35,767 nucleotides of DNA from Acidobacteriota bacterium. Lineage in GTDB: Bacteria; Acidobacteriota; Vicinamibacteria; Vicinamibacterales; UBA8438. The DNA lies in NCBI GenBank assembly GCA_021296515.1, contig JAGWAH010000007.1, positions 61,223 to 96,989 on the forward strand. The letters are read 5' to 3'. Made by a program: the position numbers and the translations under genes. This document shows, piece by piece, positions 20,802-22,095 of this stretch (positions are counted from its first letter, which is position 1; every line of letters begins with the position of its first letter). The notes below the pieces were generated by a model that saw only the letters and a program-made list of their open reading frames with translations, had not been told where the DNA came from and ran no database searches.

Positions 20802-21434
20802 GTGCCCACCGATCCGCTGTCCGGGCCGGCCGACTCCACCGACGCCCTCATCGAGGCCTGCCTGCGGGGAGACCAGACGGCATGGGACGCCATCGTCCGC
20901 CGCTACCGCCGGAAGGTGTTCAACGTCGCGTACACGTTCGTGGGTCGCCACGACGAAGCCGAGGATCTGACGCAGGACATCTTTCTGAAGGTCTTCAAGG
21001 CTCTCGGCACGTTCGACCGCCGGGCCAACTTCACCACGTGGATCATCAGCGTCAGCCGCAACCTCTGCATCGATCACTACAGGCGCGTGCGAAAGGAACG
21101 CGAGGTCGTCGACCACCGCGTGGACGCGAGCGAGCTGTCACCGGTGTCCGGAGGCCTCGACGCGTTCGCACGACTCGATCGCTTCGACCGGCGGGCGTTG
21201 CTGCGCGAGGCCCTCGCGGCGCTGCCGGAGACGCTCCGGGAAGCCGTCGCGTTGCGCGATCTGCAAGAACTGTCCTATCAGGAGATCGCCAGGCAACTCG
21301 GTCTTCCGGACGGCACGGTGAAGTCGCGAATAAACCGGGGACGCCATGAGCTGGCACGCCAGGTGCTGCGGATCGAGAAGGCACAGCGCGCGGACAACAA
21401 CCGGCGTGCGGGAGCAGCGGCCGTCACCCCTTGA
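20802..21434 (+). CDS. ECF-family RNA polymerase sigma factor (with STAS partner)
   Basis: A roughly 210-residue ECF sigma factor. Region 2 is GDQTAWDAIVRRYRRKVFNVAY, then DEAEDLTQDIFLKVFKAL and FTTWIISVSRNLCIDHYRR. Region 4 is LPETLREAVALRDLQELSYQEIARQLGL with the helix-turn-helix ending GTVKSRINRGRHELARQVL. The start is uncertain: GTG 20802 is the closest to the family N-terminus, with TTG 20793 and GTG 20778 as in-frame alternatives. A possible ECF-like CGAACC (20734-20739), 17 bases, CGACGA (20757-20762) precedes it, but it overlaps the lysA promoter region and is weak. No zinc-finger anti-sigma gene follows; instead a STAS-domain gene begins 14 bases after the stop. Confidence 0.9.
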   Translation: MPTDPLSGPADSTDALIEACLRGDQTAWDAIVRRYRRKVFNVAYTFVGRHDEAEDLTQDIFLKVFKALGTFDRRANFTTWIISVSRNLCIDHYRRVRKEREVVDHRVDASELSPVSGGLDAFARLDRFDRRALLREALAALPETLREAVALRDLQELSYQEIARQLGLPDGTVKSRINRGRHELARQVLRIEKAQRADNNRRAGAAAVTP

Positions 21435-21448
21435 GCGGAGCAACTGGA

Positions 21449-21790
21449 ATGAACTTGTCAAGCGAGCGCGTCGGCAAAGCGGTTCTCGTCCGGGTGGGCG
21501 AGGCCAAACTGACGTACCAGATCCTCTCCAAGTTCGCGGACGCGGTGACGAAGCTGTTCGCGGCCGGCGAGAAACGCGTGATCATCGATCTGTCGCGGGT
21601 CGTGTACGTCGACAGCGCGACGATCGGCTGCCTGATGGACCTGTACCGCCAGGCCGACAAGCTCGGCGGCGCGATCAAGCTGGCAGGCGTGCAGAAGCGT
21701 GTCGAAACGATGCTGACCATGACGGGCGCGCACAATTTCATCGAGCTGTACGCGGACGAGGCCGGCGCCGCCAGCAGCTTTGGGGAATGA
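21449..21790 (+). CDS. STAS-domain protein (anti-sigma factor antagonist type)
   Basis: A 113-residue single STAS domain. Features are the beta strand AVLVRVGEAKLTYQ, then KRVIIDLSRVVYVDSATIGCLMDLYRQADKLGG, where DS(56)ATIG matches the DSSGLG loop that carries the phosphorylated serine in SpoIIAA-like anti-anti-sigma factors, and IKLAGVQKRVETMLTMTG as the last helix. ATG 21449 has GCGGAG eight bases upstream; an in-frame TTG at 21431 would read into the sigma gene's stop. Classical STAS antagonists work with an RsbW-type kinase, which is not in this window. The stop overlaps the next ATG (ATGA), so it is coupled to the following gene. Confidence 0.88.
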   Translation: MNLSSERVGKAVLVRVGEAKLTYQILSKFADAVTKLFAAGEKRVIIDLSRVVYVDSATIGCLMDLYRQADKLGGAIKLAGVQKRVETMLTMTGAHNFIELYADEAGAASSFGE

Positions 21791-22095
21791 ACATGCGCAA
21801 GATCAAGACGACCTCAGGCACCGAAATCGGTCTGGACGGCGACCTGCTGGCGGTTCTCGAAACGCTGTATCGCGAACTCCATTCCCGTCACGGGCTCGAC
21901 TACAGCTTCGAGGACACCATGCGCGAGATCCGGCACCTCATCGGCCAGATGGCGGAGACGGACCGCGAGACGTACCTGCTCGAAAGCCTCTTCCTGAATT
22001 CCGTGACCTACGAGAACGAGAAGCTCGGCGCTTACGTCCGCAAGCTCACGTCGGATGCGGGGCCGCCGGCCGCGCACACGGCCGACCGGCCCTGA
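21787..22095 (+). CDS. Small helical protein of unknown function, coupled to STAS gene
   Basis: A 102-residue protein I do not recognise. It starts with a short beta-like segment (KIKTTSGTEIGLDGDLLAVL) and then is almost wholly helical (LYRELHSRHGLDYSFEDTMREIRHLIGQMAETDRE, LESLFLNSVTYENEKLGAYVRKL), with an unstructured tail. There is no signal peptide, membrane segment, cysteine cluster or ATPase motif, so it is not an RsbW-type kinase. ATG 21787 overlaps the STAS stop; ATG 21793 is an alternative with TGGGGA at a better spacing. It is the third gene of the ECF-STAS block and may regulate the sigma or STAS protein. That is inference from position only. Confidence 0.78.
   Translation: MNMRKIKTTSGTEIGLDGDLLAVLETLYRELHSRHGLDYSFEDTMREIRHLIGQMAETDRETYLLESLFLNSVTYENEKLGAYVRKLTSDAGPPAAHTADRP

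Follow-up and report, generated by a model that had tools for sequence, protein, structure and literature searches.

Gene order and coding content of the locus

The window, the whole stretch of 35,767 nucleotides that was analysed, belongs to a 3.3 Mb draft genome (G000), the relatives of which are mostly labelled Vicinamibacterales or Acidobacteria. At positions 20802-22095, it carries a trio of genes, all on the plus strand, that encode an ECF sigma factor, a STAS protein and a small protein from a new protein family, hereafter called the third protein. The features are as follows.

20802..21434, plus strand: ECF sigma gene, 210 aa, GTG start (PF04542, 1.1e-21; PF08281, 7.7e-18; TIGR02937, 1.8e-33); orthologue found in 164 of the 193 genomes of the class (E <= 1e-42)
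21449..21790, plus strand: single-domain STAS gene, 113 aa; product with the anti-sigma factor antagonist site Asp55-Ser56 (PF01740, 9e-16; TIGR00377)
21787..22095, plus strand: third gene, 102 aa (100 aa from 21793), new protein family without a significant family or PDB match; modelled with AlphaFold2; present in 169 of 193 class genomes
21787..21790, plus strand: ATGA overlap of the STAS stop and the third start, read from the sequence and also found in L002-L004

Previously, a preliminary description of this DNA reported an ECF sigma gene followed after 14 bases by a STAS gene and then, through an ATGA overlap, by a third open reading frame, and the reading-frame coordinates together with the Pfam and NCBIfam matches bear out this arrangement. 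The same ATGA overlap is found in three relatives (L002-L004), and the STAS and third genes mostly lie 1-2 bases apart in other relatives. The overlap could possibly couple the translation of the two genes. The trio is flanked upstream by a divergent lysA gene and downstream by a convergent lpxC gene, which is followed by uvrA; accordingly, neither an anti-sigma factor nor an RsbW kinase adjoins it. The kinase partner was also described as absent, which holds for the locus but not for the genome, since we found RsbW-type kinases elsewhere in all seven genomes checked, including the window genome. Several of these kinases adjoin STAS genes of their own.

The sigma protein matches Sigma70_r2 (PF04542) at residues 31-97 and Sigma70_r4_2 (PF08281) at residues 133-181, both over the Pfam cut-off, and thus has only the Sigma70 regions 2 and 4 that define ECF factors. 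The STAS protein consists of a STAS domain alone with an Asp-Ser phosphorylation site, as in RsbV/SpoIIAA-type antagonists, and scores 54.6 bits against the cut-off of 53.45 for TIGR00377 in NCBIfam. Because this Asp-Ser site of RsbV/SpoIIAA is kept, with Ser56 invariant in 107 of 107 sequences even at loci where the STAS gene remains alone, the STAS protein is probably phosphorylated. A sigma-70-type promoter was recognised 5' of the sigma gene at 23 of 94 loci, compared with 0.2 expected by shuffling; the window shows no evident promoter of this kind. This enrichment points to steady expression of the genes and control after translation, by protein binding. Autoregulation through an ECF-type promoter was considered and rejected, as no ECF-like dyad was found and the promoter is of the sigma-70 type instead.

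The third protein

Compared with its counterpart in a relative of the same genus (L004), the third gene differs at 3, 4 and 31 sites at codon positions 1, 2 and 3, respectively, over 88 codons. Because of this codon-position pattern, and because it is present in 52 of 60 relatives, comparative evidence indicates that it is a real gene under purifying selection. Outside the genus, its homologues begin at the second methionine (MR...), so that positions 21787 and 21793, the latter giving a protein of 100 aa, are equally likely starts. The protein contains no cysteine and no membrane helix or hydrophobic stretch. Its most conserved stretch, YLxESLFLNxVxYEN, lies in the long helix of the predicted fold.

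We obtained a fairly confident AlphaFold2 model from 53 sequences (pLDDT 84.6, pTM 0.62). The predicted fold begins with an N-terminal beta hairpin, followed by helices at residues 20-35 and 41-53 and a long helix at 57-90. The protein had been described as helical from its sequence; the three helices agree with this view, but the model adds the hairpin. Searches by sequence and by predicted fold gave no significant match for the third protein in Pfam, NCBIfam, PADLOC or the PDB, and no convincing family match emerged for its 53 relatives. A Foldseek search of the model against the PDB returned nothing below an E value of 1, and the predicted fold matches no solved anti-sigma factor there.

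The homology and structure prediction proposed in the preliminary description thus led to neither an RsbW-type kinase nor any other family. The third protein has no HATPase_c domain by Pfam or NCBIfam, and the predicted hairpin and three helices differ from what the RsbW/SpoIIAB kinases would require. It also lacks the HxxxCxxC motif, the transmembrane helix and the Pfam domain of ZAS/RseA proteins. Neither FlgM nor NepR is among the Pfam and NCBIfam matches of the window protein or among the families listed for the 53 relatives. We therefore rejected assignments of the third protein as an RsbW kinase, a zinc anti-sigma factor, NepR or FlgM. Scattered matches to BID, vimentin, Seadorna VP6 and ubiquitin fragments in the PDB, Pfam and Foldseek searches were discarded as well, with E values for the window protein of 0.05 or worse by sequence and above 1 by fold. 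The exodeoxyribonuclease VII small subunit, an NCBIfam match among the relatives, was likewise discarded; its best E value of 0.001 is far below the cut-off and it covers only about 20-40 residues. A separate weak NCBIfam match, to LIC_11502, recurs in 11 of 53 family members at residues 31-66 in a constant register, with a best E value of 0.0055 that is also far below the cut-off. Judging from this register, the third-protein family could be a distant relative of LIC_11502, a family whose name follows the style of a Leptospira locus tag.

Conservation of the trio and joint loss of two genes

A STAS gene lies directly 5' of the third gene for all 101 distinct third proteins, and the sigma gene lies 5' of the STAS gene for 96 of them; three of the five exceptions are 300 bases or less from a contig end. 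With strict cut-offs, the third, STAS and sigma genes were detected in 169, 177 and 164 of the 193 genomes of the class, respectively. The full trio also occurs beyond the class, in a few other Acidobacteriota lineages (L056-L058) at about 47% identity; the search beyond the phylum was one pattern-based scan of genome contigs. A look for the same order in other genomes had been suggested as a check, and the order is kept across the whole bacterial class. Genomic comparison thus indicates that the trio is more than a chance arrangement. We found no ECF-STAS-small protein trio from Acidobacteria in the literature searched; the main ECF classification paper lay outside that search, and an earlier mention is possible.

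Three genomes from other Acidobacteriota lineages (G065, G080 and G092) have the STAS-third pair without a linked sigma gene. The pair stands alone in G080 and G092. The G065 locus (L156:4448-6329) has the order GGDEF diguanylate cyclase (with a weak GAF match), STAS and third gene, with no sigma gene at the locus. Each of the three genomes has an unlinked sigma gene that is the best match both ways to the trio sigma gene. These genes were rejected as the missing trio sigma, as the tree places them outside the trio clade. An unlinked ECF sigma gene in these genomes (L180, L181 and L182 for G065, G092 and G080) is followed by a gene for a membrane protein that starts with B-box-like cysteines and has membrane segments resembling DUF5683/LiaF; this arrangement is conserved in two families and is possibly another sigma/regulator pair. 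Two other neighbours were recorded at related loci. A large TPR-repeat protein is encoded 3' of STAS-third pairs that have no sigma gene linked to them (L158:3742-5295 and L157:3160-4722). Another order of the class has a DUF1573 gene that either abuts the 3' end of the third gene or overlaps it (L163:4499-4909, L103, L110, L123, L127 and L137).

Nine STAS-positive genomes among the 193 lack the third gene, and the sigma gene is also gone in all nine. The STAS gene still stands between lysA and lpxC in every one of them, though it lies between the two lost genes. Remnants of the sigma gene are preserved as fragments in G521, and L207 has two such fragments. On a genome tree built from lysA, lpxC and uvrA, the nine genomes fall on about three branches and hence do not represent nine independent events. 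One branch holds a group of seven, another G523 beside the trio-bearing G527 and G515, and the third, less sure (support 0.28), G513 beside the trio-bearing G524. All three genes are decaying in G341, where part of the interior of the sigma gene is deleted and the truncated STAS gene runs into a broken third gene. A further 14 genomes of the class have none of the three genes at the cut-offs used. The missing third gene in G016 and the missing STAS and third genes in G024 were not accepted as real losses, since they coincide with contig ends.

Because the sigma and third genes are lost together while the STAS gene between them persists, the former two depend on each other, and the STAS protein can serve something else. 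Such joint loss is the pattern that a sigma/anti-sigma pair would leave, and an obligate co-activator would give the same pattern. The third protein had been put forward as a possible new kind of regulator; its conservation and its joint loss with the sigma gene strengthen this suggestion, and the mechanism is what we infer in the next section.

At related loci, a gene for a radical SAM/SPASM protein, with the SPASM domain first, lies 3' of the third gene on the same strand (for example, L066:3290-4651); it is absent in the window. The radical SAM/SPASM protein may be an accessory fourth member, because its gene follows the third gene at 40 of 78 loci and none of the STAS-only genomes has it.

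A putative STAS-controlled sigma switch and its alternatives

We propose that the three genes constitute one partner-switch module. The third protein would hold the ECF sigma factor inactive as a soluble, non-membrane and non-kinase anti-sigma factor, and the STAS protein, when unphosphorylated, would capture this inhibitor and thereby free the sigma factor. An RsbW-type kinase encoded elsewhere would phosphorylate Ser56 and a phosphatase would reverse the reaction, which would set the switch. All binding, the negative sign of the third protein's effect, and phosphorylation with its enzymes are steps that we infer. We put the chances that the module works with the predicted inhibition and relief at about even. 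A predicted fold unlike that of solved anti-sigma factors, the three genomes without a linked sigma gene, and a joint loss that a co-activator would fit as well all argue against it. A model in which the STAS and third chains of L090 were joined by read-through of the stop codon, a modelling device and not a claim about the organism, reached a pTM of 0.55 with only six paired rows.

The closest working parallel is HsbA of Pseudomonas aeruginosa: in its unphosphorylated state it binds the non-kinase anti-sigma factor FlgM, and its phosphorylated form binds the diguanylate cyclase HsbD (PMC6482189; also PMC5085249 and the review PMC8256260). In the HsbA-FlgM-FliA system, which also includes HsbR and HsbD, a STAS protein of a single domain sequesters a small anti-sigma factor that is not a kinase and so frees the sigma factor; the trio would work likewise. 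HsbA also works with a GGDEF diguanylate cyclase, which the GGDEF-STAS-third order of G065 recalls. However, FliA does not belong to the ECF factors, Pfam and NCBIfam give no FlgM match for the third protein, and the trio genes form one tight unit with no HsbR-like protein beside them. In the general stress response of Alphaproteobacteria, the ECF factor EcfG is held by NepR, a small soluble protein, which parallels the proposed role of the third protein (PMC8103513). EcfG-NepR-PhyR likewise has one locus that encodes an ECF sigma factor, an anti-anti-sigma factor and a small helical protein that is soluble, but the antagonist of the trio is a STAS protein instead of a sigma-like response regulator, and the third protein has no NepR match. 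The trio resembles RsbV-RsbW-SigB and SpoIIAA-SpoIIAB-SigF in having a STAS antagonist with a conserved phosphorylation-site serine adjoining a sigma gene, whereas its sigma factor is of the ECF type and its third protein is not a HATPase kinase. As with RseA/ZAS-type anti-sigma factors, the third protein is encoded near an ECF sigma gene and lost together with it. Unlike them, it has neither HxxxCxxC, being free of cysteine, nor a membrane helix or family match, and a STAS gene sits between the sigma and third genes.

An alternative explanation, which we consider unlikely, would have the third protein regulate the STAS protein or act as its effector, for example as an adaptor between it and a trans-encoded kinase or phosphatase, or as its output target. 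The third protein would then make no contact with the sigma factor, which would be the usual co-transcribed output. The STAS gene as the sole neighbour never missing, the STAS-third pairs without a linked sigma gene in G065, G080 and G092, once behind a GGDEF protein, and the RsbW-type kinases present in trans would all fit this explanation. In the nine genomes in which the STAS gene persists, however, the sigma and third genes are both gone; the third protein is thus more than a partner of the STAS protein and goes with the sigma factor.

Even less probable in our estimate is a positive role, in which the third protein would assist the sigma factor as an obligate co-activator or a promoter-recognition subunit, with the STAS protein regulating the pair. 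In its favour, the joint loss would be equally expected, and the sigma regions 2 and 4 look complete. Against it, ECF factors with both regions complete normally require no co-activator, and an antagonist and an inhibitor downstream of the sigma gene is the usual order for inhibitors. In addition, anti-sigma factors are known targets of STAS proteins of this type (PMC8256260). Least probable is another function altogether, for example one tied to the radical SAM/SPASM gene, in a trio that is a mere operon of co-used genes: that gene follows the third gene at the loci counted above, and each of the 80 genomes (of 193) that carry it has the trio or remnants of it, but it is absent from the window genome and about half of the trio genomes, and the near-total retention of the sigma/antagonist order with touching genes suggests a direct switch.

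Returning to the partner-switch module, we file the system as partner switching of a sigma factor in which a new protein family takes the putative anti-sigma position: the third-protein family is new, and the kind of system is known. A more far-reaching proposal, which we hold tentatively and at somewhat less than even chances, is that the third protein is the founder of a new soluble, non-kinase anti-sigma family with a fold unlike any solved, and that the trio represents an ECF sigma factor that is controlled through a STAS protein and has no kinase anti-sigma factor of its own, serving as a nearly universal regulator across one whole class within the Acidobacteriota. Via a new small-protein family, the trio would join ECF sigma factors with STAS partner switches, two regulatory worlds that are both large and mostly separate. 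If true, this would be a new way to keep a sigma factor silent, it would give a testable function to many genes annotated as 'hypothetical protein', and it would open to study the regulon of a common, hard-to-culture group of soil and marine bacteria.
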